From contig NC_056000.1 of NCBI RefSeq assembly GCF_018446385.1, forward strand, positions 35,749,511 to 35,813,510: DNA of 64,000 bases, given 5' to 3'. Every line of letters starts with the position of its first letter. The first letter of the stretch is position 1. Source of the stretch: Zingiber officinale. Taxonomy: Eukaryota; Streptophyta; Magnoliopsida; Zingiberales; Zingiberaceae. The position numbers were made by a program, and so were the translations under genes. Shown here piece after piece: positions 22,549 through 48,020 of the stretch. The notes under the pieces are model-generated. The model saw nothing but the letters and a program-made list of their open reading frames with translations, was not told where the DNA came from and ran no database searches.

Positions 22549-25500
22549 TCACCCCGCCCGGTAAGGCTGGAGGTGGTTCGCGCTCCACGGCCTATCTAGC
22601 TGCCGTCCGTCCTCATCCTCCAGATAATACGCGCCCGAGCGGAGCTTTTCGATGATTTTGAAAGGGCCTGCCCATGGCGCTTCAAGCTTGCCGACGTCGC
22701 CGACCGGCTTGACTTTCTTCCAGACAAGATCGCCGACTTGGAACGATCTGGGAATTACGCGCCGGTTGTAGTTTTGCTTCATCCGCTGACGGTACGCCAT
22801 CAGCCGAACGGACGCCTTTGCCCTCTCCTCTTCTACCAAGTCCAGCTCCATGTTTCTTCGTTCGGTGTTGTCATCATCATAGTTCTGGATCCTGGCTGAC
22901 TCAACGCCGACTTCGACCGGTATGACAGCCTCACCGCCATATATCAAATGGAACGGTGTGACTCCCGTCCCTTCTTTTGGCGTCGTTCGGATAGCCCACA
23001 AGACGCTCGGCACTTCATCCGGCCAACTCCCTCCCAAATGGTCGAGCCGAGCGCGCAGAATACGAAGAATTTCCCGGTTGGCGACTTCAGCTTGACCGTT
23101 GCTCTGAGGATAGGCCACGGACGTGAAATGTTGCTCAATGCCGTAGCTTTGGCACCAATCCTCCAACATCTTCCCTGTGAACTGCCGCCCGTTGTCGGAC
23201 ACCAGTCGGCGAGGGATGCCGAACCGACAAATGATGTGCTGCCAGATGAATTTTTTAACCATTTGCTCAGTGATCTTTGCCAGCGGCTCGGCCTCCACCC
23301 ACTTGGAGAAATAGTCTACCGCCACTAGTAAAAATTTCCTCTGCCCGGTCGCCATCGGAAATGGACCCACAATATCCATTCCCCACTGATCGAACGGACA
23401 TGAGATGGTTGATGCCTTCATCTCCTCTGCCGGTCGGTGGGAGAAGTTGTGATACTTCTGGCATGAAAGGCATGTAGATACTGTCCGAGCGGCATCTGCT
23501 TGTAAAGTTGGCCAAAAGTATCCGGCCAAGAGGATCTTCTTGGCTAACGAGCGTCCGCCTGGATGACCTCCACATGATCCTTGATGTACTTCCGTAGGAT
23601 GAGTCCTCCGAGCTTACACATTTTAGCAGAGGACGCGAGAAAGCTTTCTTGTAAAGCTGATCTCCGATGAGTGTAAACCGACCGGCTCTTCTTCTGAGGA
23701 GCCGGGCTGCATATTCATCGGATGGTGTGGTGCCCGAACGGAGGAATTCTATAATAGGTGTCCTCCAGTCACTTGGAAACGCGAGGCCTTGCATCCGGTC
23801 GACATGCGCCACCATCAGCGTTTTTTCAATTGGCTGCTGAATGGCGACCGGCGTTATTGAGCTCGCGAGTTTGGCCAACTCATCGGCCGCCTGGTTCTCC
23901 GTTCGGGGAATCTTCTGAATAAGCACTTCTCGGAAAGTAGCTTTGAGTTTTTCAAAGGCCTCAGCGTAGAGTTTAAGCCGAACACAGTTGATTTCAAAGG
24001 TGCCGGAAAGTTGCTGAGCGGCCAACTGTGAATCCGAATAGAGAGTCACCCGACCGGCTCCCACATGCCGTGCTGCCTGTAATCCGGCTATAAGGGCCTC
24101 ATACTCTGCCTCATTGTTGGTGGCCTTGTAGTCCAGCCGGACGGATAGGTGCATCTTTTCTTCTTGCGGTGAGATAAGTAATATCCCAATCCCGCTTCCG
24201 AGTCGAGTGGAAGACCCATCCACATATATCCTCCACAGAGCTTCCGGCTCGGGCCTCTGCACTTCGGTCACAAAATCAGCCAAGGATTGGGCTTTAATCG
24301 CCGAGCGGGGCTGGTACTGGATGTCAAACTCGCTTAATTCTGTCGTCCACTTGATAAGCCGTCCGGACGCTTCTGGATTCAACAGGACTCTTCCGAGTGG
24401 ACTGTTCGTCCGGACAATGATTGTGTGAGCCAAGAAATACGGTCGAAGGCGCCGAGCGGCTAGAACCAAAGCAAAGGCCAACTTCTCGAGCCCGGTGTAG
24501 CGAGATTCAGCATCTTTCAAAATATGGCTCAGAAAATACACCGGTTGCTCTTCACCGCTCGCCCTCACAAGTGCTGAGCCTACAGCATGCTCAGTTGACG
24601 ATAGATACATATAAAGTGACTCACCCCCGATCGGCTTGACAAGTATAGGCAGAGAATTCAGATATGTTTTCAACTCTTCAAATGCTCGGTCACACTCTTC
24701 GTTCCACTGGAACTTAGTAGCCTTGCGCAGGATCTTGAAGAATGGCAGGCTCCGGTCGGCAGTTTTGGAGATGAATCTGGACAAAGCAGTTATCCGACCG
24801 GTCAACCGTTGCACTTCCCTTGTGTTTCTGGGAGGAAGCATGTCTTGCAGAGCTTTCACCTTGCCGGGGTTGGCTTCGATTCCCCGCTCGGTCACTACGT
24901 ATCCCAAGAAACGTCCTCCCTTTGCTCTGAACAGGCACTTCTGGGGATTCAGCTTGACTCCGTATTTGCGCAGCGTTCGGAATGTCTCTTCCATGTCTTT
25001 AAAGAGATCTGCCGCTAGGACGGATTTAATAAGAATGTCGTCCACATAAACTTCCAGATTCCGCCCTATTTGCTCCCTGAACACTTTGTTCATCAAGCGT
25101 TGATAAGTGGCCCCGGCATTCTTCAATCCGAACGGCATCACGTTGTAACAGTAAGTGCCGTCGGCAGTCACGAAGCTAACCTTTTCCTGATCTTCGCGGG
25201 CGAGCGGTACCTGGTGATAGCCCTGGTAGGCGTCGAGCATGCAAATTAATTCACAGCCGGCCGTAGAGTCCACCAGCTGATCTATCCGGGGCAGAGGATA
25301 AAAATCTTTGGGACATGCTTTGTTTAAGTCCCGAAAGTCAATGCAAACTCTCCACTTGCCGCCCGGCTTGGAGACCAATACCACGTTGGCTAGCCAGCTC
25401 GGGAACTGCACCTCGCGTATGTGGCCGGCCTCCAGAAGTTTCTCTACTTCCGCCCGGATTATGGCATTCTGCTCGGCGCTAAAATCTCTTTTTTTCTGCT

Positions 25501-27670
25501 TCACTGGCCGAGCGTCAGGTCGGACATGCAACTCATGCTGCGCTAGGCTCGGCGAAATTCCGGGCAACTCGTGTGTCGACCAAACAAAGACATCATGATT
25601 TTGCTGGAGGCATTGGATCAGCTTCTTCTTCTGTTTTTCCTCTAGATCCGAGGCGATGAAAGTGGTGGCCTCCGATCGGGTCGGATGGATCTGAACTTCC
25701 TCCTTTTCATCATAAATTAAAGCAGGAGGTTTCTCGGTTATGGCGTGTACCTCGATTCGGGGGGCCTTCCGAGCGGAAGAAGCTTCTGCTCGGATCATCT
25801 CTATATAGCATCGCCGAGCTGCTAGCTGATCTCCACGCACTTCTCCTACTTTGTCTTCCACGGGGAACTTTATCTTCTGGTGGAAGGTTGAAACAACCGC
25901 TCGGAATTCGCCGAGCGCCGGTCGTCCCAGAATGACATTGTAGGATGATGGAGAGTCGACCACCACGAAGTTTATTGTCCTGGTCCTCCTGAGCGGCTCT
26001 TCCCCCAGTGAGGTGGCCAGCCGGATCTGTGTAAACCCGTAGAGCGGGGTAGTCATGGGCAGCAGCTCGGCTCGATCAATTTGCAGCTGATCGAACGCCT
26101 TCTTGAATATGATGTTGACCGAGCTCCCTGTGTCAACGAATATGCGATGAATAGTGTAATTTGCTATTACCGCTTTAATGAGCAACGCGTCGTCATGGGG
26201 CACTTCTACTCCTTCCAAGTCTCCAGGCCCGAAAGTGATTTCCGGTCCACTTGCCCGCTCTTGGCTACAGCCGACCGTGTGGATCTGCAGCTGCCGGACG
26301 GCCGCCTTTCGGGCTCGGTTGGAATCTCCTCCGGTCGGTCCGCCAGCAATAACGTTGATCTCGCCCCGGGAAGTATTGCTCCTATTTTCCTCCTCCCGAG
26401 TGGGCGGTCGGGACCGTTCTCTGGACGTCCGGCGACTCTCCTGTCTTGGGGATCTATGCCGATCGGACGTCTGGTGATGTCGCCTCTCTATGCGGGTCCG
26501 GTCGGCTTCCTGGGTCCTTTGCCTCCTGTCGAGGGGAGGAGACCGTCGTTCGGCTCTCCGGGGAACGGGATTAGTCACGAAGGGAAGACTTCGACAATCC
26601 CTCGTGTTGTGCGTATCTGACTGGTGGAAGGAGCAGAACATAGGGGTCCACCTCTTCTTTGGCTTGGGCCGAGCGGCAGCCACTTCTTGTACGTGCGATC
26701 TGGCGCGGGGGGATCGAATTGCTTCGGCCCTCGGTCCTCTGGGTGGTTGCTGAGCGGCGTGCTGCTTCCGCTCGGCATGAACAGGTGCACGCTCGGTTGG
26801 AGTTTCCTTTTTCCGAGCGGCTTGCGCTTCTTCCACGTTTATGTATTCGTTGGCCCGATGTAGCATGTGATCATAGTCTCGGGGCGGCTTTCGGATGAGC
26901 GACCGGAAGAAGTCCCCATCCACAAGGCCTTGTGTGAAGGCGTTCATCATCGTCTCCGATGTGGCCGTTGGGATGTCCATCGCCACTTGGTTGAATCGCT
27001 GGATGTAAGCTCGAAGCGATTCTTTTGGTTCTTGCTTGATGGCGAACAAGCTAACACTTGTTTTCTGATAACGCCGACTGCTATCGAAGTGGTGGAGGAA
27101 GGCCGTTCGGAAGTCCTTGAAGCTTGTGATGGATCCGTCCGGCAGCCTACGGAACCACCGTTGAGCCGATCCAGAGAGAGTGGTAAGAAAGACGCGGCAC
27201 TTCACTCCATCGGTGTATTGATGGAGCGTGACTGTATTATCAAACTTACCCAGATGATCATCCGGGTCCGTTGTTCCATTGTATTCGCCGATCGTCGGAG
27301 GCACGTAGTGCTTGGGCAGAGGGTCTCGTAAAATATCTTCCGAGAATTGGCGATTGGTCCGCTCGGGAGATGAGTCTGCCCGGGGGGCTTTCCCTTTTCT
27401 GTCATCCCGCCTTGGCATTTCATCTGAAGAGGAGCCTCTATCTCTTCGAGCTGGTGCGGCTTCAGGAGTGCGAAACAAGGCTCGGTGGAATGCGACGGTG
27501 GCTTGAGGTGCTTCCGCTCGGCCACCAGACGCAGATGTCGCTTGTTGCTCCGCCCGCTCGGCGGATGCTTTTTGTTTTTGCTCCATGAGTTTGGCGGCCC
27601 TTATCTCGACCAGGGCGTCGAGTTCCTCTGTTGAAAGCGTCACCGTGTGTTGTCGTCCAGCCTCGTCCAT
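22549..27670 (-). CDS. gag-pol polyprotein region of the young Tat element
   Basis: It starts at the ATG at 27670 (MDEAGRQHTVTLSTEELDAL), about 45 bp after the primer-binding site. Domains in order are gag (RWFRRLPDGSITSFKDFRTAF), a Cys/His stretch (FCSFHQSDTHNTRDC), aspartic protease (FVDTGSSVNIIF), RT (MPFGLKNAGATYQRLMNK and VYVDDILIKS), a Gypsy RNase H, and a second, archaeal-type RNase H (WRIYVDGSSTRLGSGIGILL). Integrase follows with a zinc-finger part (CLSCQKYHNFSH), the core (MDIVGPF, SDNGRQFTG) and YPQSNGQAEVANRE. The double RNase H is the hallmark of the Tat lineage. Two long reading frames cover the region (27670-23267 and 23529-22549). It is nearly whole. Confidence 0.9.
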
Positions 27671-27715
27671 TGTCCCCGATCGGATGCAGGAGCGTTCCCA
27701 CAGACGGCGCCAATT

Positions 27716-28563
27716 TGATCCTGTCCGAACCAGAAGTCAACAGACGCTGGGCACGTGGCGCTCCAAGGCTCGCTGATGTAGATCTCCAACTAGTGTCGAG
27801 ATGCTCCGGCTATCCTGCACAGAAGTCGAGCCGGGAAGGGGATTCCCAGCGACGACCCTCCGACGCTCAAGTCAGGTAAATCACGATGAACAAGGTGGCT
27901 CCAGAAGTCTCAGAGTACGTACCAGAATCCTCTCGCCGGTGAAACCTGAGGTTCTTTATATAGAGCGGTGTCAAGTTTGGGCACGCGTACCGAAGTGCAT
28001 AAGTGTCCTCTGTCCTTTCCTAGGTATGCGGCTGTCAGAAAGCTTACCTGACCCATATCGCTACAGTCAGAGCATGCCCTCGATGGGACAGCGGAATCCC
28101 CTGCCACAAGATCTGGAGCATGGCACACACGTGAAACTTACAGCTTGTCAGAGGAAGAAATCCTCTGGCCTTTTCCCGTGCTCCAAACTTGTAGTCCGGG
28201 CGGACAGATACCCAAACATCCGACCGGACATTAGCAGTGGTTTACTTGTGCTTTGTGGAGACTAACAAACAGGGGTGCTTTATGACTGTGGTCGGTCAAA
28301 AGGTCAGCTCGGTCCCTGACCTTTTTAACTGAGCGTCGGAACCCCGATTTGACAGGGTTCTTCCCAACTATAAGTGCGAGCCGGCTGGACCCCTTCGGGT
28401 ATTCGATTCCATCGGCCGGCCAGCAATTCAGTCGGACCGGCCGTCTACAGCCGTCCGTCCGGTCGGACCACACTCTCCTCTGGGCGGGTGACTGTTCCGG
28501 TGACTTCCACGGCGTTGACTTGGCAAGAAAAAAGGTGGGGGGCCCGCTCTTACTACCGGATCA
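27716..28563 (-). repeat. 5' LTR of the young Tat element (848 bp)
   Basis: TG...CA bounded; the inner edge sits two to three bases from the primer-binding site. The minus strand has a TATA box (TATATAA, about 27956-27962) some 240 bp before the inner edge, suited to starting the genomic transcript. Comparison with the left LTR gives the age estimate. Confidence 0.9.
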
Positions 28564-28568
28564 CACGA

Positions 28569-30154
28569 TTTGCTAAAAAAAATGCTTGAATAAAATTATT
28601 TTCTATACGAAATTACAATGTGATGCCTTTTTAACTCTTTAAAAGCAAAGAGTGCTTCTCTGTTTTGTGTTTTTGTTTTTTTTAATGATTTTTTTACCCG
28701 AGCCTACTATCCGACATTTAAAATTTGAATTCCAGAAATACTATATTATAAGGATTTTCTGTCAGTGGGATGATAAATCTAACAGTGTTCATTTAGATAA
28801 GTCTTTATAAGTTTTTCTTAATTTATTTTTATAAATTAATTGTTTCGAAATTATCTAGATAATAAAAATGGTGCAACGGTCAAATATTCTGACATATGAA
28901 CAAATAGTCAATTTAAAAAAAAGTTGGATTATAAAAACAGACTTGTATAGAATTTTTTTTTTAAAAAAAAACCCCCGTGCAACTTTAGTAGCTAATCAAT
29001 TATCCACGGTTTGAATCTTGATCTGGATACTGAATTATCAAAAATCCAAATAAATTATAGATTTTTAAAAACTATCAAAAAAAAATGTATAGATTTTACG
29101 TGATCGAGACGGCCACAAAATTGCAGACGAGCTGGCCATAGAGCCAGCTGTGACGTCACGACAAGTGATAGTGAAATCGAGGCTTATCCCTTATTCAATC
29201 AACTCAATTGTAATTTAATGATTGTCTTTGCCACATAGAGATAGACCATAGAAAAAGAATATTTGCAACCAGAGGTACAGTGATAGAATACCTTCTCAAT
29301 TTTTTATGCATCTAAGAATTAAATTTTAATTTTTATAAATTAATTAATTAATTTCTTTTAATAGATGATTAAACTAAAAATACTGAATTGATGTATCATA
29401 TGTTACTTGCCTTAATAATTGATAAAAAAATTTATAAAATTAGATCATCTTTAAGATCCAACTTGGAAATTGAATGCTCTCATCATTGTCTATGAAATAA
29501 TGGAATGGAACCGTTCTCCAAGAACAAATAAACAACCGAAAAGAAGAAGAAGATATTTAAAAGAAAATTTTATTTATTTTAATAAATTGCTCTATTAAAA
29601 TTTTTATTTTATGATGTTAGTCGCGAACATTATCCTCGTGTAATATTTTTATGGGTAAAAACAAAAGGATGCCCAAATTATGTAAATGCGCTCATTTAAA
29701 AAAAAATAAAAGAATGCTCCATTGAAAATTTTATAATCAGATATCCCTTTCTAACGGCGTTGTAACTGTTTTTCTAATGGCGTTGTAACCACTATCTATC
29801 TGTAGTTGTTAATTATTACAACGTGTAAAACTTACTAAATAACTACTATAATGATTTTAAAATAATTTTGATTAATTTAAAATAATTTCTTAATAAAGTT
29901 TAAGCAATTTGATCAAGTAAAAGGTATTTTGATATAATAATGTTATATAGTAGCTACCATTAGCTGTTATAATGAGTAGAAAATAAGGATAATAATGGTC
30001 AGATTGAGGTCGAATTCTATATCTTTCATTCTTATATCAATCGATTATCAAATATCTGATCTCATACTCATACTCATTAAAAGTTTAGATATCTTCTATA
30101 TTAATAATTATTTTTCTTTTCATTAAATTATCATAAAGTATATTAAAATTAACA

Positions 30155-30238
<84 letters not shown>

Positions 30239-30635
30239 AATTAGGTATTCAGATCTGATATCGATACCCTCCTCCATTCGATATATATTATTTAATCTGG
30301 TAATATTGAATTTTTTTTATCAGAGAAGATATTATCATCCTTAATAGAAACTAGCTACTATAATATAAAAAATTAATTATTCATTTTTAATCAAAATGAT
30401 ATTCACAAATTACTTTTATATTAAAATATTCATTACAACTTTACTAATTTAACTTGATAAAAATTATTTAAATTTTATCAAAAATAATTTTAAAATAATT
30501 ATAATTAAATCATAAACCATAAATTGTAAAATTACTTGAAAATAGTGGTAACAACTGTTAAGTATTTTTTATAATGATTATAATAGTTATCAGTAGTAAC
30601 TGTTGAATATAAGGATGTAATTGGACCAAACGATT
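28569..30635. other. AT-rich intergenic DNA
   Basis: No gene is recognised. It contains two close copies of TAACGGCGTTGTAAC-like sequence near 29755 and 29790, and frequent A/T runs. A long (TA)n tract lies inside it and is listed separately. Confidence 0.5.
30158..30234. repeat. (TA)n microsatellite, about 38 repeats
   Basis: An uninterrupted alternating AT tract of about 77 bp. It is likely to be length-variable and a possible assembly weak point. Confidence 0.95.
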
Positions 30636-30639
30636 TGTA

Positions 30640-31200
30640 AATTATTCGATATTCGGTTCGATAAAAAACTCGTTCGAGTTCGTTTGTTGATCTTATCGAG
30701 CCGAGCTCGAGCTCGATTTCGAGCCGAGCTCGAGCTCGATTTCGAGCTCGACAGTTTTATCGAGCCAAGCTCGAGCTTAAGGATATTCGGCTCATGAGCT
30801 CGTGAACATGTTCGTTTGTAGGCTCACGAGCTAAAAAAATGAATAGTCTTAAAACGAACCTTAAAACGAGAAAAAAAAAAAAAGAGTTCTAAAACGAGTC
30901 AAAAAAACGAGTTCTAAAATGAACCTTAAAATGAGTTTTAAAACAAGCAAAAAAAAATGAGCTCTAAAATGAGACCGGAAATGAGCCCAAGCTCGCTTAA
31001 CGAATTAGGATCGTTAACTATGATAATCGAGCTAATAACGAGCCGACCTCGAACTGTTCGCAAGCTTGATAATTCCAAAACGAGTCGCTCGAGCCTTGTA
31101 ATAAAAGTTCGATTCGAACTCGAGCTCGAGCCCGAATATAACTTAAACGAGCCAAGCTCGAACCTAATATTGTTCGACTCGGTTCGGCTAGTTTACCCCC
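30640..31200. repeat. Dispersed repeat rich in GAGCTCGAGCTCG
   Basis: Palindromic GAGCTCGAGCTCG runs, with TTCGTTTGTTGA and CATGTTCGTTTGTAGGC motifs, alternate with AAAACGAG and AAAATGAG stretches. Plant genomes carry a common interspersed repeat of this style. No termini or target duplication are clear, so the class is left open. Confidence 0.5.
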
Positions 31201-31497
31201 TAGTTGAATATGAGGTATTTTGGAAAAAAAATTTCTGAGACTCCTTTTGATTTTTTTTTTAAAAAATAAGAGTATTTGCATAATTTCCCTATTTTTATGA
31301 TAATTTAAAATTTATTTTCTCCAGGTCATGTTTTATTAAAAATATTAATAAATTTATTATTTTATACAATTTTGATGATTTTAGAAACATAAGGGACTTT
31401 AAAAAAATTATTTTTAGATTCCCATCGTCTTCCGACGACCTCGCACACCGGCGCATCGATCGCCGGCGATGAAGGAAATGGAATCTCGAGACTGGCG

Positions 31498-31605
31498 ATG
31501 AGATCAAGGTGGACCGTTCATCGGCTTTCAATTCTGTTCCTGTTCCTGTTACTGATCTTCGAATCAGAGAAGTGCGATGCGAGGAGAGGAAGGTTTCCTA
31601 CTTGA
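31498..31605 (+). CDS. Small ORF with signal-peptide-like start
   Basis: The ORF encodes 35 residues. A basic start (MRSRWTVHR) is followed by a strongly hydrophobic core (LSILFLFLLLIF) and ESEKCDARRGRFPT, a convincing secretory signal shape. It lies in a local GC-richer island. After its stop an overlapping frame continues to about 31745 (ending ...SAWSKKIGFLK), directly followed by an AATAAA. It could be exon 1 of a split gene, a decayed small secreted peptide gene, or chance. I do not recognise a CLE, RALF, PSK or EPF core. Confidence 0.3.
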   Translation: MRSRWTVHRLSILFLFLLLIFESEKCDARRGRFPT

Positions 31606-31749
31606 GGTTCGGAATGCAGGCTGATGGGGCGATCGCGCCCACCAGGATGGATCACAAGGTCCCTTCGAGGCGGACACCTGAGGAAGGCTTCGGATCTCGG
31701 CGGAGCTCAAGCGCCTGGAGCAAGAAGATCGGTTTTTTGAAATAAAACT

Positions 31750-32709
31750 CCTTTAGCCCCTCTCTTTCATTTTGAAATGATTTTTATAGATCTCGCGTTT
31801 TTTACTTCCGTTTTCTTATTTAAATTCTCATTTGGATCTTAACTCGCTATCGATCGATGATGTACATTTTCAAAATTGATTAGTAACGTAGGGATGCTAA
31901 TTCTTTCGTTTATCTACTAAAGTTCATGCGCATTGATGCAGAAAAACAAAAGTGATTTTTTCTGCTGACACGAACGAATTTGGTCTGTGTGAATGAGATC
32001 GAAGATTATGAACATCCTTTTTGCTACCTGCAATGCAGTCACTGATAACAAATATCACATTTCTGATTTTGTTTGTTGTTCTGATCATAATTTGACATTC
32101 CACAAGTTTATCAAAAACAAAATGGTGTTTTTAATGCTGGTCTGCTTTGCAGTAACTGGTGACATATATCATAGTTCTAAATTTGTCTGTTGTTCTAATT
32201 ACAAGTTAACATGTCACAAGGTTGTCATGGGCAGGAGTCCTTTTTACTACTAGTTCTTGCTAATGCCGTAACATGCCATTTTGTTTCTATACATCCAGTT
32301 GGAACTTTAAGGATGTTTCTTTTTGTTTAGCATGTAGCAAAAACAAGGAAACTTGGTCCTGATTCTTTTGTAGACTACACAAAGGTGAAAGATGAAGGGT
32401 CCATAGAAAGGACGCATATATTGATTTGGATTCGCAGTTAAATGGTGGCAAGTAGAAAATGACAATAGGATGAGACCAATCTTTAGCTGTGGGTCTTGAC
32501 ATATAAATACCACATGTACTGGGGTTCTTTTTTTTGATGTAAAACAATAGATCTCTAATGGAAAAAAGGCAGATTGTACATGGTTTTTCTTTGGTGAATT
32601 TACTTAGTTCAGGTTGTAGAGTATTGTGCATTTGACTCTCAAACAGTATACAGTGCATCTACATAGTTGAGAATGTAATGCTATGGTTACTTGTAACTTT
32701 GGGAGGCAG
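31750..32709. other. Intergenic or intron-like stretch with an internal duplication
   Basis: About 32025-32215 holds two diverged tandem copies of a unit of roughly 120 bp; both contain (G)CAGT(C/A)ACTG and TTTGT(T/C)TGTTGTTCT. No exon can be defended. Confidence 0.4.
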
Positions 32710-32861
32710 AGCCGGTCCTTGTTATTTAAAGGCCGTGGACGAAACTATTATTTATACCCCAATTTTATTCTTCCATCAACCTAAGTAATAATTATTTTAA
32801 TCTATAAAATTTTATTTCTAGAAATGGGATAAGGAAATAAGATTTTTTATCTTAGGACAGT

Positions 32862-33003
32862 TGTAAAAGAGATAAAAGAGAATTACCAGAATTGACCGGA
32901 TCAAATCATCAAATCAAATCAAATTTTGTCTTGAGGGCAAATATCAACAAACAATAAGATTAATTATTACTCTCTTATTTTATCTTCTTTCTATTCTTCT
33001 TTT
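32862..33003 (-). mobile_element. Short LTR-like insertion in the left arm only
   Basis: 142 bp present in the left arm and absent from the right arm, with AGTTG at both junctions. It begins TGTAAAAGAGATAAAAG and includes AATTGACCGGATCAAATCA, closely related to the LTR-like sequence at 10641-11093. It must be younger than the inverted duplication. Confidence 0.55.
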
Positions 33004-33740
33004 AACAAGTTGCTCCTTTTTTATTTATGCATAAATTTCTACAATTCTAATATAGAAATAAGAATGAAACATCAATTTCAAAACTATGGATATAAATTTC
33101 ACACTAGGATTAGAACTTACTGGAACCTACAAACTTTATCAAATATCCCTTTGAAGAATATGATAAAATCTTCTCTGAGAACCTACACGATGATATAATA
33201 AAGTAATTATTGCTACAAACCATTAATGAAGAAGGTCAAAAAAAATTCTATGAGGTAAACAAGACAAATATATTCATAATTAATAATCTTTGCAATAGTA
33301 AACAGTGTTTCAGCATCCACGCCAGCTTCCTTAGCCAAAATGTATAATTTAGGATAAAAAGTTACTTTATTAAATTTGGATATCCACTTTTCATTACACC
33401 ATATATCAGCTTCCCTATTTTTTCTCTCTCATCTAGAATGTTTAGGGAATGAAAGTCATTTCCTAAATTTAGAAATGTACTATTCATAAATGCAAAATTT
33501 AGGGAATAGATAGAGTGGCTGATGCAAAGGTTTTTTAGCTACCCTATCCAAAGTTTAAGATAAAATTTTTAGATGTGGATGCTCTAATATTGAACTCTGC
33601 TATCTTGGTCAGTAGAACATTTAAGTACTGGTAGTACAATTTGCTTTGATATTAAAAAAAATATATGTTAGCAATAAATTTGTGTAAAATACACCAGTTA
33701 AGAAATTTTAACTTTGAAATTATAACATGCAAGTCTTACT

Positions 33741-34259
33741 CTTATATGTCGAGCGCCATCTATTCCCAAACAACAGTAGCTACTGCAAGTCCTATTAACC
33801 TACCTTGCAAGTAAAAACTAGAATGTGTGTTCATGCAGCATCAACTAGTAACTTTTCAAATCCGAAGGAATACATTTCTGATTCCATAGAAATAGAATGT
33901 CATGATTGCCTAAATAATAATGAACTGACCTTCCTAAGGTTCGCTTGCGGTGAGCAAGCAAATTCCAAGGTTAGTAGGTTGATCACAGCCGAAATCTTAT
34001 CATGCTCGCTAGAAAGTGCGAGTTGTTTAATGATACCTTCGATTTGTGGGATGATACCTTCGATCTGTGGTCTCGAATCATTTCAATATAACCAAATCCG
34101 TTCATTATTCACGAACAATCAAGAATCCTCTTCTCGGATAAGTGGGGAAATGGATCGGGATAGGCTTACCTCACGAGCATCATTCTTTTGCTTCTCGTAG
34201 ATCATGTCTCCAAGGTCGAGGAGGGCGTCGACGAGGATCAACGACGAAGAGTCAGCCAT
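33741..34259 (-). pseudogene. VAC14-like gene, exons 1-3 only
   Basis: VAC14 is the ARM-repeat scaffold of the PIKfyve/FAB1-FIG4 complex that makes PI(3,5)P2 on endosomes and the vacuole. Exon 1 (34259-34170) encodes MADSSSLILVDALLDLGDMI and then YEKQKNDARE. Exon 2 (34064-33930) encodes IEGIIKQLALSSEHDKISAV and NLLTLEFACSPQANLRK, a close match to the plant VAC14 N-terminus as I know it. Exon 3 is in the left arm (about 33803-33741), decayed and out of frame. Exon 2 opens with a 21-bp tandem duplication (IEGIIPQ-IEGIIKQ). The rest of the roughly 700-residue protein is absent, so this is a duplicated gene fragment. Confidence 0.8.
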
Positions 34260-34395
34260 ATTTTTTATATATATTAACTTATTAAAAATGGGCCCCTGGG
34301 TCCTCCTCGTCTATGAAATCAGAAATGTATTCCTTCATATTTGAAAAGTTATTAGTTGATGCTGCATGAACACATATTCTAGTTTTTACTTGCAG

Positions 34396-34461
34396 GGCAG
34401 GTTAATAGGACTTGCAGTAGCTACTGTTGGTTTGGGAATAGATGGCGCTCGACATCTAAGA
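34396..34461 (+). pseudogene. Inverted copy of VAC14 exon 3
   Basis: Between the acceptor TTGCAG and a GTAAAA donor the plus strand encodes GRLIGLAVATVGLGIDGARH then LR. It is recognisable as the VAC14 segment G-G-L-I-G-L-A-A-A-T-V-G-L. It is better preserved than the copy in the left arm, but is inverted relative to exons 1-2, so it cannot be part of that gene. Confidence 0.75.
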
Positions 34462-35343
34462 GTAAAACTTGCATGTTATAATTTCAAAGTTAAAGTTTCT
34501 TAACTGGTGTATTTTACACAAATTTATTGCGAACATATGTTTTTTTTTAATATCAAAGCAAAATGTACTATTAGTACTTAAATATTCTACTGACCAAGAT
34601 AGCAGTGTTCAATATTAGAGCATCCACATCTAAAAATTTTTTCTTAAACTTTGGATTTGGTAGCTAAAAATCCTTTACATCAATCACTCTATCTATTCCC
34701 TAATTTTTGCATTTATGAATAGTACATTTCTAAATTTAGGAAATGACTTTCATTCCCTAAACATTCTAGAGGAGAGAGAAAAAATAGGGAAGCTGATATA
34801 TGGTGTAATGAAAAATGGATATCCAAATTTAATAAAGTAACTTTTTATCCTAAATTATACATTTTGGATAAGGAAGCTGGCGTGGATGCTGAAATACTAT
34901 TTACTATTGCAAAGATGATTAATTATGAATATATTTGTCTTGTTTACCTCATAGAATTTTTTTTGATCTTCTTCATTAATGGTTTGTAGCAATAATTACT
35001 TTATTATATCATCGTGTAGATTCTCAGAGAAGATTTTATCATATTCTTCAAAGGGATATTTGATAAAGTTTGTAGGGTTCCAGTAAATTCTGATCCTAGT
35101 GTGAAATTTATATCCATAGTTTTGAAATTGATGTTTCATTCTTATTTCTATATTAGAATTGTAGAAATTTATGCATAAATAAAAAAGAGCAACTGTCCTA
35201 AGATAAAAAATCTTGTTTCCTTATCCCATATCTAGAAATAAAATTTTATAGATTAAAATAATTATTACTTAGGTTGATGGAAGAATAAAATTGGGGTATA
35301 AATAATAGTTTCGTCCACGGCCTTTAAATAACAAGGACCGGCT

Positions 35344-38130
35344 GAGGGACCTGATTTAGGTAGTCTCAAATAGAAAGGCCCAACCTAGGCATTTTCTGAT
35401 ACTAAGGGCCTTAGGTAGAATGCTTCTGTTTTGTACTTTCATGTTCTGTAGCTTGGTTAGAATTTTTGAACCTAAGGATTTGTTTACTTTGGATGGAAGA
35501 TATACACAAAAGATAGACATACATAATGGAGCTTTATATGTAATTCTGCAATCGCTTCTCTTCTCCCTCTTGACGTTCTGTCCAAGTAAATGAACCCTAC
35601 ATGACCTTACTTGTCCAGCAACCTAAATGTGTGCTCTTACAGAATTATGTCATACTTAGATTAAACTTCTGCCAACTAAAGTAGGTTTTTGTTATATTTT
35701 GTGTTTTTTATTATGTACTTCATCTTTCTTTCTTTTAGATTAATCACAGTAGTTTGCACTAAATTTTCATTAGAGTAGCTCTGATTTGTGAAATATACTC
35801 TTTGATTTCAAGTTGTTTGCCCTGAATCTTTCAGATTCTAGTTTATCCTATATGGAAAAAAAGAAATCTTTGCAGATGACCATTAACCTAGACCTCTTAT
35901 GTTTACCCAATTGTATTCGAGGGATCTCTTTCTATTTATCCAACTCTCGCCAAGTAAAACAAGATCGTACTATGATCCATCAAGTTATTGTGTTAATGCT
36001 AGGTTGCTAAAATAGAACTGCAACACTTGCTATTTATGATAAAAAAAATAAAACAATAGAATTGTGACAACCACTAACATAGAATCATAACATTTGCTAA
36101 AATTGAACTATGACTTCTGTTAAAATATAACTGAGACAATTTGTATCTAGTTATAAAAATTAGAACGATAGAACTATGACGTTTGCCTATCATAGGCTCA
36201 TAGCATCCTTTAATTGGTGGTAACTCTTTCATTTTAAAAGGTATTCTAAAAATATTTTTTAGAAATAAAACATTTTATGTAAAACAAATAGATCCTCGAT
36301 TACAAACCTTCTTTATGGATTTCTGCTTGAAGCACACTTATCCTTTGATATTAGAAGTATCCATCGCACGCTACCAAGGTATACATTTTCAAATGCCTCC
36401 ATTCATCGACCGGTATCAGGTACATTTCTTTTTCTTGATTATTTATGCACTTGTTTTCATGTTAAGTGTATCATACTTGATCTGTTAACGCACACATTAC
36501 ACTGCAATATCGAACAACTTGCATCCAAATCTTCTTCTTCAGTTACCACACATCATACTTGCAAATTCTCATCTCTCTTCCTTTTCATGCAGTGTATTCT
36601 TTGGTTGCATCTTATTTCTAGGTCAGCTCTTGTCCAAAAGCAAGGTTTTGGTGGATCAAGATGGTACAAATTTCACTCAGATGCCACTATTTTCCTGCCC
36701 AAATTAAATCTTGTCTCCCATCTCCAGTATGCATATTGTGCTCTTAAAGCAAATGCACCAACCAAACTGAAGCAAACACAGTGCCCTAAAGTCTAAACCG
36801 AGAGGACTCGACACAGTTAACCCTTTTGACAAAAGTGACTAGATGTGCAATTGATTGTTGTGGTAAACTTGTCATGCTTTTGGGCAAAGCTCCTCTGATT
36901 AGGTCACTTCTTTACCTAACTTGTCCTCTGTCTTATCACCTACTGACACCTTGATGTTATGCAACCTTTGCAGGGTTCAGGTGATCATGAGAGTCAAGAA
37001 GTATTTTGATCATTATATATATATTTTTTTGATAATTTAGGTGTCCTGACTAATCTTGAAGCATTTACCAGGTAAATCTAGAGCATAACTTATGTACGTT
37101 CGTCCTATTTAAAATTCAAACATTGGTCCTCTTATTACTTCTTCGAGTGTTTTATATTTCATTGCTTGACATGAGAAAGCTTGATGCCAGCAAATGGTAG
37201 AATGCCGGGCTATGTTTAGTTCGACTTGTTTGGCGAACGATGGATGACAATCAGAGTTGGTGTTTGATGACTCGTAGCTGGTCCAAAGGTTGGACATGGT
37301 CTTGCAATGTTCTTGACACCGATAACTAGTTATCGTATATGATGTAAAGCATTCATCCATGTTTAATTTGGTCGATCGATTTTTGGTAAAAAAAATGAGA
37401 GATCCCTCTTTAATCTGTTTACTTTGCCTCATTCATCCAAGTAAACATCTCATTTTCTCTCTTCCCACTTCATGAATCATGATCATAATAATTTCATGTG
37501 GGGGGCGGGGCAGGCACTCATGTTTCAGTCGTCCTTCAGATGATGATTTAAAGTCTCCTTTCAGAAACAAAAACTCTCAGAATTTTTTATTAATATAAAA
37601 ACAATATATATGTTTATAGTATATATTCCAATTATTAAAGATTTTTGAAATTTATTCCTAACTAAAATATCTTATTTCAAGCATTTAAAGAGTGAATTGC
37701 ATATTCACTGTTGTGGTTTGTTTTGTGATGAATTAGCATGATATAATAATATTATAATATGATCTGAAAAGAATAAAGAGAATATATTTAAAATTTTAGA
37801 AAAATAATATATTTTTTGTCATAAGCTTAATTGGTTCGAATAATATATAAAAAAAATGAAAACGAAATGCTCCATATTCAAAAAATATTAAAAGGATATT
37901 TTATTTTATATCTTTACAATATTTTCTAAAATTGAAAGTAGAGCAAAATTGTTGTTACATGTAAATGATGATTATATTATAATATTTTTTTCAACATAGT
38001 TAAAATTAATTAATTAGATTAAAATTAGTTAAACTAAAAATATTTTTAAGTTATAATGAATAAAATAAAATAAAATGGGTGGGGCATATTGATGATAATA
38101 AAAATAAAGGTTATTTGTTTTTTTTTTACC
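35344..38130. other. AT-rich intergenic DNA
   Basis: Only short open frames are present, without codon bias or recognisable domains. Short dispersed look-alikes of CTATGAC or TTGTGACAAC occur near 36020-36200 (ATAGAACTGCAAC, ATTGTGACAAC, GAACTATGACG). The last 500 bases are the 5' flank of the DUF506 gene. Confidence 0.5.
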
Positions 38131-38133
38131 TTG

Positions 38134-38140
38134 TATATAA
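38134..38140 (+). promoter_or_regulatory. Possible TATA box of the DUF506 gene
   Basis: TTGTATATAATAACG lies about 430 bp before the ATG. It implies a long 5' UTR, which is plausible because 38160-38560 is a GC-richer, transcribed-looking leader. A weaker TTTAAAAA at about 38227 is the alternative. Confidence 0.3.
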
Positions 38141-38569
38141 TAACGTGGCATCATCATGAACGAGATGCAAAGGGATCCCTGTAGCATGCAACGTAGAGGA
38201 TCCGAACAACAAGCTCGCTCGGCTCCTTTAAAAACCCTCGATGAGTCTCCTTTCTCGCCACTCTCCAGTCCTGCTCCTCCGCCAGGATCAATGGAAGAAA
38301 TCGCCAGTTCAACGGCGAATGTCGCCGGAATATCCTCTGTATTTCCGTTGGATTAGTTCATCTGAGCTCAAGATCGAACCTCGTGTTTTGTTGAATCTTC
38401 ATCGCCGTGTTTGAGGATATATTTTTTTTTTCATGTTCGACATTTAGGGTTTCGTGTTTTGGGAGCCGTATCGATCTCGAATCCGAGATTTTGGTCTCGA
38501 TTTTGCGTTTCTCGTTGAGATTTCGTGTTCTTTTTTTTGATCGGAATCGCGCTGCCAAAGCCGTTCCCG

Positions 38570-39653
38570 ATGAAGGTCCAACCGATCGATTCTATGGGAG
38601 AGGTGGCCTTCGCGCCGGCGAAGCCTATCGCGAAGTCCCGCCTGAAGCGGCTCTTCGAGCGGCAGTTCTTGAGGAGCGCGTTGGTGGAGAAAGCTGTGGG
38701 GTCTGGTGACGGGAAGGACCACTCCGACGACGCGGTGAGCTTGGACGCCATGGTTTTCGGTTTCTTCGAGGAGGGGAACCACGAGAAGCCGCCGCGAGGC
38801 CGCTGCAATTGCTTCCACTCCAACTCCGAAGGCAGCGACGACGACGATGCCGACGATGACGATGACGACGACGGCGAACGCAAGAACGCTCCAGGAACTG
38901 CCATTCCCAGCGACGCGATCGAGGCGATTAAGGTGAGTTCCATTTCGCCTTTGCCCTTTTTTCATTTGGCTCCCCAGTTTCGAGTTTCGAGCTTCGAGAG
39001 TCGTTTGATGATTCGAGTAGGGTTTGGTGTTCTGCGCGAGCATGGCGGAGAGAAATCTCTTGGCGGATGCATCGAGAATCCTCGACAAAGCGAGGAACTC
39101 AAAGATCAAGGGAAATTGCACAGCGGTGTTGGCCGCCGGACTTCGATCGCTCGGCTACGATGCGGCCATTTGCAAATCCCGATGGGATAAAAATCCTTCT
39201 TTTCCGGCGGGGGAGCACGAGTACGTCGACGCGGTGGTCGGCGGCGACCGCCTCCTGGTGGACGCGGGCTTCCGCTCGGAGTTCGAGGTGGCGCGGCCCA
39301 GCAAGACGTACCGCGCCATCATCCAGCTGCTGCCGCAGGTGTTCGTCGGCCAGCCCCACCGACTCCAGCAGATCGTGGCCGTCGCCTCGGAGGCAGCCCG
39401 GCAGAGCCTGAAGAAGAACGGCCTCCACGTGCCGCCTTGGAGGCGGCACGAGTACATGAGGACCAAGTGGTTCTCCGCTTACCATCGCGCAGCCGCCGTG
39501 GAAGAAGCTGAAGCCAAGGACATCTCCGAGGAAGCGACGACGGCGGCAATAGAGGTGGTGGGCTCACCGTGGACGACAGTGCCAGCGAGGCCAAAGCCGG
39601 GGGATAAATTTCTCACCGGACTTGCTTTGGCCTTGCAAAAAATAAATACCTAA
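38570..39653 (+). CDS. DUF506 family protein (PDDEXK-like), two exons
   Basis: Exon 1 is 38570-38932 and exon 2 is 39021-39653, with a clean GT-AG intron of 88 bp; together they encode 331 residues. The ATG at 38570 (MKVQPIDSMGEVAFAPAKPI) is chosen because the family starts this way. SRLKRLFERQF, a conserved family block, follows. An acidic run (EGSDDDDADDDDDDDGERKN) sits near residue 95. The DUF506 core is complete: SLGYDAAICKSRWDKNPSFP, GEHEYVDAVV, RLLVDAGFRSEFEVARPSK, RRHEYMRTKWFSAYHR. The fold is classed as PDDEXK-nuclease-like, but activity is unproven. Some Arabidopsis members bind calmodulin and repress root-hair growth. Exons are much more GC-rich than the flanks. Confidence 0.95.
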
Positions 39654-40717
39654 ATATTTTTTTTTTTAGATTTTCGGATTTTATTTTGAGTGATATAATA
39701 TTATAGTGAGAGTTAATATTTTTCCTTATTATCTTAGATTTTATATAAATGCTTAATATTAAGAAAATAAAAGATTTTGAACGAAATCTAATAAATGCAT
39801 ATAATAGATGGCAAAACAAAACTTTTCAAAATAATTTCATAGGCAATTGATACAAAAAAAGCTCTTCGTTTTTTTAGAATATTTTCAACTTCTATTTATT
39901 TTAAATGATACATGTTACTTTAGCTATTAACTCTTTAAGAATATTATATCAATATCAAATTTTACATCAAATTTGTGTAAAATAATCTAAATAAAATAAA
40001 ATAAAAAAGACCATGAATTTTCTACCAGGATCTCAAAGAAGGATCCATGACCTCCAAATTAGATGATAATAATTTTACCCCTGCATCAAGAAATAGAATA
40101 GGAGAGAAAACATAAAACAAACTAGGAGGAGTTTCACACTCTGAAAGCCACTTCCCTACCAGCTCCATTGCCATTGCTGCCTCCCAACAGTTCTGCTAAT
40201 TATGAACCTAAGAGAGGGACCACTTTATTGAGGTATCATCAACAGCAGAGGACTGCAAAGACAAATAATGGTGGAAAAGAAAAGAAGATTCACGTAAAGT
40301 AAACAGAGCAAAAGGAAAAAAAGAAATCTGAATCCTTTTTTCTATCTGTTTCCTAAGTGATGACAATTGAAGGAGCAAGAATGGCTTTTCATGGAATTCC
40401 ATACCTCCTGAAAATGACTGCACTGCTCTTTCCATGTAGAAATTGTGACAAAGATTTAAAGTATTATTGAGTAAATTCGGAGCTCAACTTATGCACACCC
40501 GTGAGGACAGGGTACTTGAATGTTATTCTACAAGGACCTTGAATGATGCATTGGCCATCATTTTATTATTTTCCGAATGAATCAATGTCTAGGAACAGGA
40601 ACCATAATACAATAGATGGCACAAGGCATGCTTATTCAAATTGAGAAAGTTAAGTAGAAGGGGAGGGCAAAAGGAAGGATTATGATCGTCTTCCTTATTT
40701 ATCGGTCTGGTTCCATC
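39654..40717. other. Intergenic spacer between two convergent genes
   Basis: AT-rich 3' flanks of the DUF506 gene (plus) and the tryptophan synthase gene (minus). No additional gene or repeat recognised. Confidence 0.5.

Positions 40718-48020
<7,303 letters not shown>

Follow-up and report, generated by a model that had tools for sequence, protein, structure and literature searches.

The fold-back at positions 32710 to 35343 of the window (the whole 64,000-nucleotide stretch of the ginger genome that was analysed) is very probably a rearranged non-autonomous hAT element that carries the captured 5' part of a VAC14-like gene, occupies at least seven sites and lies here in head-to-head form. 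Non-autonomous hAT elements that carry a gene fragment, or Pack-hATs, are of a kind already described (PMC8903248), and the window locus is best classified, from its sequence, as a known transposon class in an uncommon fold-back form. The parts that carry this reading are the element ends, the copies, the target duplications at sister sites, the capture junctions, a hAT transposase remnant in a relative and the comparison of haplotypes.

Structure of the fold-back

The window allele (C15:35782217-35784856) consists of a unit A and an opposed unit D, the middle being missing. As a sequence-only reading of this DNA had claimed, its two arms are inverted repeats of one another. Five collinear blocks of 154, 112, 536, 118 and 126 nt pair the left arm (32710-33890, plus strand) with the right arm (34310-35343, minus strand) at 99, 98, 96, 96 and 93% complementarity, respectively, lengths and identities that would fall well outside chance. 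VAC14 exons 1 and 2, said to be enclosed by the arms, were both located in the loop between 33890 and 34310 (exon 1 at 34170-34259, exon 2 at 33930-34064 with a 21-bp tandem duplication, both on the minus strand). Exon 3 is indeed present in both arms in opposite orientation, at 33740-33804 (-) on the left, where it is one base shorter, and at 34396-34461 (+) on the right. The captured content, given as exons 1-3, was understated, since both arms also contain exon 4 and the first 85 bp or so of exon 5. The outer 240 bp or so of each arm (insertion not counted) is a transposon end rather than VAC14 sequence.

By sequence comparison, the captured segment (exons 1-4, introns and the start of exon 5) runs on the minus strand between approximately 33098 and 34262. 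Comparison with the genome's VAC14 genes places the start of exon 5 at about 33099-33182 and the first part of exon 4 at about 33587-33643, both on the minus strand; a MITE-like repeat with many copies sits within exon 4 at about 33312-33586, its right-arm counterpart at about 34617-34890. Outside the captured segment lies the left terminal region of the hAT element (32707-33099, plus strand), with its end motif and two parts, query 1-158 and 303-393, that recur at VAC14-free loci. An extra 152 bp at about 32864-33015 interrupts this region; neither the right arm nor the homologous chromosome has it. This insertion has relatives at C2:101843827 and C8:10041829, which suggests a small mobile repeat. 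On the other side of the loop, a remnant of the hAT right terminal region (about 34263-34309, plus strand) is followed by the right arm, a second, inverted copy of the element's left end.

The outer junctions are asymmetric. On the left, the octamer TTGGGAGG (32699-32706) stands where the 8-bp target-site duplication would be. On the right only GAGG (35344-35347) is repeated, and the matches to the two flanks overlap by these four bases and no more; here the terminal repeat is short of its final three bases, and half of the duplication is gone. A Pack-TYPE element lies between a left and a right end, with the target duplication intact, whereas the window copy has two left ends, a truncated right end and a duplication reduced to 4 bp. 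It is thus a derived compound rather than a standard element.

A dispersed hAT family

The genome of cultivated ginger is available as a haplotype-resolved assembly (PMC8342452), which appears to be the genome searched here (3,090,333,446 bases, 211 contigs). A search with the whole locus returned at least 117 matches (best 40 of 3209 candidates scored), and for the left-terminal query, 32707-33311, the best 40 of 1432 candidates were scored; since limited candidates were scored, copy numbers from both searches are lower bounds. The exon region gave 43 matches (36 of 36 candidates scored), 30 of which fall, in our own grouping, into seven insertion sites, each present on both homologues: one on C15/C16 (apparently homologous chromosomes), two on C7/C8, two on C3/C4, and one each on C9/C10 and C17/C18. 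The others comprise four VAC14 genes, five VAC14-like pieces on C50 (two), C63, C13 and C6, two right transposon ends on C1/C2 and two weak matches on C15. Homologue pairs of sites have common flanks (for instance, L010 and L012 are 95% identical over 5.9 kb), and the flank of the window site has one copy per haplotype. The genome was also screened for an empty site, with the two flanks joined, and only the two alleles turned up. Segmental duplication was considered as the source of the copies and is rejected in view of the target duplications and the differing flanks. The C9 unit contains an insertion (L021 3255-3899, oriented as fetched) that matches sequence 5' of VAC14a (L023) and is probably a shared repeat.

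Element ends read CAGAGCCGGTCC..., and the units begin with CAGAGCCGGTCCTTGTTATTTAA, a motif that occurs 87 times genome-wide at up to two mismatches, against no occurrence of a reversed control. This terminal motif is one that we take to be hAT-like. The right end is best preserved in L046 and L021 (...GGGCYGGCTCTG), and terminal inverted repeats of the hAT type can be read in both, as CAGAGTCGG...CCGGCTCTG in L046 and TAGAGTCGG...CTGGCTCTG in L021, those of other copies being imperfect. Target duplications of 8 bp are found at four of the six sister VAC14-bearing sites. GTTGTAGC is exact around L010 and L012, as is GTTTCAAG around L014. TCTCTAGG is exact between the left side of L013 (C3) and the right side of L022 (C4), the left copy on C4 (L015) reading TCTCTAAG, a match at seven of eight positions. 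The duplication of L021, TATTAATG/TATTGATG (TATTRATG), likewise agrees at seven of eight, with one change. At the L011/L016 and L017/L018 sites no duplication is readable, the left end having decayed or been replaced. Two family members free of VAC14 are also bounded by exact 8-bp duplications, CTATTCAT and ATATATAC (L045, L046).

L045, which has the same ends, contains the broken end of a hAT transposase (Dimer_Tnp_hAT, PF05699, E 2.5e-8, above cut-off); among the three pieces scanned, one other matched PF05699 below cut-off (E 0.0017) and one had no match. Domains of this type are frequent in the genome (6560 first-look candidates, best 150 scored), and the remnant could therefore be a later insertion. 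Nevertheless, the terminal repeats and the 8-bp duplications point the same way as the L045 remnant, to hAT. Between the shared ends, L045 and L046 hold other internal sequence, with GC-rich tandem repeats in L046, and may represent further gene captures.

Capture of the VAC14 segment

Both boundaries of the captured segment can be placed. On the left, the units open with about 240 bp (query 1-158 and 303-393 of 32707-33311) that are also present at VAC14-free loci; among the matches listed, all 12 VAC14-free rows that cover the second piece end at query 390-393, and the VAC14-like copies on C50 and C6 begin to match at query 391. On the right, the units become transposon end only a few bases from the ATG, and the gene-type sequences L023, L024, L025 and L047 (C50) continue into 5' sequence past it. 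Similarity to the genes ends a few bases upstream of the ATG, and the VAC14 promoter was not captured. As in Pack-TYPE captures, the parent genes lie elsewhere: VAC14a on C1/C2 and VAC14b on C3/C4. PF12755 and PF11916 are matched at all four VAC14 gene places and exons 1-5 are open, from which we infer that both genes are functional. The VAC14 identity of the captured exons was established by DNA and translation comparison with these genes, the short, diverged loop reading frames 33900-34082 and 34119-34310 giving no VAC14 match in Pfam.

The left unit is 74.5-77.5% identical to the VAC14 genes, 85.3% to the C50 copy and 87-91% to the other sites, which indicates that the capture is old. The MITE-like repeat most likely entered afterwards, since neither the VAC14 genes nor the C9/C10 copies (L020/L021) contain it. 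The donor may have been a VAC14 paralogue that is now broken. A tree of the units has weak deep nodes, and only its grouping of units from the same site is used here. VAC14-like fragments occur at C50:228350-230100 (L047), C6:1.63M, C13:8.28M and C63:100.7k. The C50 fragment is without hAT ends and resembles the captured piece more closely than do the VAC14 genes, and fragments of its type are a possible donor lineage.

Two haplotypes with different interiors

At the corresponding position the homologous chromosome also carries a fold-back; its two outer junctions are those of the window allele, but its interior is different. This C16 allele (C16:30394960-30398591; L009 2464-6089, 3.6 kb) is laid out as unit A, a partial unit B in the same direction and an opposed unit C, and its longer arms include exons 1-2. 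Over 1.45 kb, units A and C agree at 95.4-95.7%, and B resembles each of them at about 90%. Between the haplotypes, the flanks are 97-98% identical and the left units 98.6%, but the right arms, D (window 34310-35343) and C (L009 4646-6089), are only 93.8% identical; in 1033 columns D has 29 private changes and C 28, against 1 and 4 in the left units. D and C are thus not simple alleles, and the history of the site needs more than one step: arm conversion or two separate rearrangements may lie behind the divergence. Units B and C of the C16 allele form a palindrome of about 975 bp (L009 4165-5139), 88% alike and almost spacerless.

Instead of inverted copying, the fusion of separately inserted neighbours could have made the fold-back, a route like that of the BB groups in PMC8903248. 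This route is compatible with the Pack-hAT reading, and we consider it a serious contender while holding it somewhat the less probable of the two. The joining of neighbouring Pack-TYPE copies is described in that report, and unit B, being only about 90% like A and C, implies that more than one element copy was involved. Against fusion, A and C (95.7%) group together to the exclusion of units from the other sites, a relation that fits local inverted copying, and the maize hAT neighbour pairs covered in the same report share orientation in 12 of 15 cases (PMC8903248).

The fold-back form was seen at this site only. No inverted arm was found at the other six VAC14-bearing sites in the roughly 6 kb fetched for each, only single units. 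Likewise, of the 87 end motifs at up to two mismatches, only those of the window site and of its C16 counterpart pair convergently within 10 kb. A foldback family is marked by long inverted arms in the majority of its members, a feature that these elements therefore do not show.

Could the locus silence VAC14?

The sequence-only reading had proposed that the locus is transcribed into a hairpin whose small RNAs act against VAC14. Its statement that the arms still pair well is borne out by RNA folding, which predicts a long hairpin if the locus is transcribed (-1719 kcal/mol, with 1005 pairs spanning more than 400 nt). Both alleles are predicted to fold strongly, as the inverted repeat itself implies. 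The step from hairpin to target fares less well. Alignment of the exons with the intact VAC14 genes, the check that had been suggested, confirms their origin and reveals an arm match too poor for near-perfect complementarity. The comparison used the 460 21-mers of exons 1-5 of each gene, one allele per gene (C2, C4). None is matched perfectly in either window arm. At up to one mismatch, 0-1 21-mers of VAC14a and 0-5 of VAC14b are matched, rising to 7-19 at up to two mismatches and 35-46 at up to three. No 24-mer is common to the window arms and VAC14 genomic DNA (1.7-10 kb per gene; exons 1-3), and an Rfam scan of 32000-36000 at E up to 1 gave no match.

The C16 allele is the better candidate for VAC14 silencing. 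Its arms include exons 1-5, and it might act as an effective hairpin, with only that haplotype targeting VAC14. Unit A has 15 perfect 21-mers of 460 for VAC14a and 12 for VAC14b and closely resembles unit C. Unit C has 3 for VAC14a and none for VAC14b, and unit B one for each gene. The perfect matches fall only in short parts of exon 2, however, and the ends are those of a transposon. We regard an effective C16 hairpin as very unlikely. A haplotype-specific arrangement, in which C16 small RNAs would tune VAC14 and the window allele, one arm of which is without exons 1-2, could not, is given hardly more than a slight chance; if true, it would constitute a natural on/off pair inside one heterozygous plant.

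For the window allele, a natural hairpin RNA or young MIR locus that silences VAC14 has in its favour the long, near-perfect arms and predicted fold, the two-mismatch matches above (up to 19 21-mers), and a 32-nt stretch (33976-34007; 12 perfect 21-mers) identical to exon 2 in VAC14a and VAC14b alike. Trans silencing of relatives by an inverted repeat also has a precedent in VIM4-VIM2 of Arabidopsis Cvi-0 (PMC13213937). The 32-nt match, however, lies in the unpaired loop, and the lack of perfect 21-mers and shared 24-mers in the arms, of a captured promoter and of an Rfam match all count against such a locus. Silencing of VAC14 by the window allele is unlikely because the arms contain no perfect 21-mer and no promoter was captured, and we would put very little weight on it, whether as a hairpin or as a MIR locus. 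That the fold-back is a false inverted duplication, one of the outcomes named in advance as refuting the hairpin proposal, is extremely improbable: the assembly is ONT-based and inverted repeats are error prone, but both haplotypes have the fold-back with matching outer junctions and differing interiors.

The surroundings give no sign of a host gene with the fold-back in its intron among the ORFs scanned with Pfam, 17 of the 103 listed in 24000-44000, of which only 39021-39653 (+) scored above cut-off. This open frame, 3.7 kb downstream of the fold-back, encodes a PDDEXK_6 domain (E 1.1e-61), and its gene may start near 38519. A 1489-aa open frame at 23267-27736 (-) resembles, by eye, the gag-pol of a Ty3/gypsy retrotransposon.

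Proposed history and relation to known systems

The Pack-hAT reading suggests the following history. A non-autonomous element of the hAT superfamily (Pack-TYPE, Pack-hAT) would have acquired a 5' segment of a VAC14-like gene, presumably in a single event, after which the MITE-like repeat would have inserted into exon 4 of the captured segment. The element would have spread to at least seven sites with transposase probably supplied in trans. At the window site, a head-to-head rearrangement would have left two left ends pointing outward, by a route that may have been inverted copying during post-excision repair or fusion of neighbouring copies, and the C15 and C16 haplotypes would subsequently have diverged in the fold-back interior. 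The window copy, which has lost half its target duplication as well as its right terminal sequence, is now probably an immobile, silenced relic, and hairpin RNA, if any, would mainly feed silencing of its own transposon family.

Foldback-type elements such as FARE and FB have very long terminal inverted repeats, the arms forming most of the element. The window copy is like them in this respect, but a fold-back is found at only one of the seven ginger sites, and the other ginger copies have short terminal inverted repeats. The Pack-hAT/Pack-TYPE elements of PMC8903248 share with the ginger family non-autonomous hAT ends, 8-bp target duplications, a gene fragment and several copies, and fusion of copies is reported there for Pack-TYPE elements; a head-to-head copy with two left ends, as in the window, was not met in the part of that report considered here (PMC8903248). 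Like the ginger locus, VIM4-VIM2 of Cvi-0 is an inverted repeat derived from a gene and has haplotypes of different structure. It differs in that small RNAs and target silencing are reported for it, whereas the ginger locus consists of diverged fragments within a transposon and is known from sequence alone (PMC13213937). Capture of VAC14 in ginger is reported in none of the titles listed by a literature search.

The locus provides a haplotype-resolved case of hAT gene capture in a plant outside the grasses. It also calls for caution, in that a gene-derived inverted repeat recognized by its letters only may be a transposon copy too dissimilar to silence its parent. Finally, it illustrates the conversion of a hAT element into a fold-back, a proposed first step toward hairpin RNA genes.
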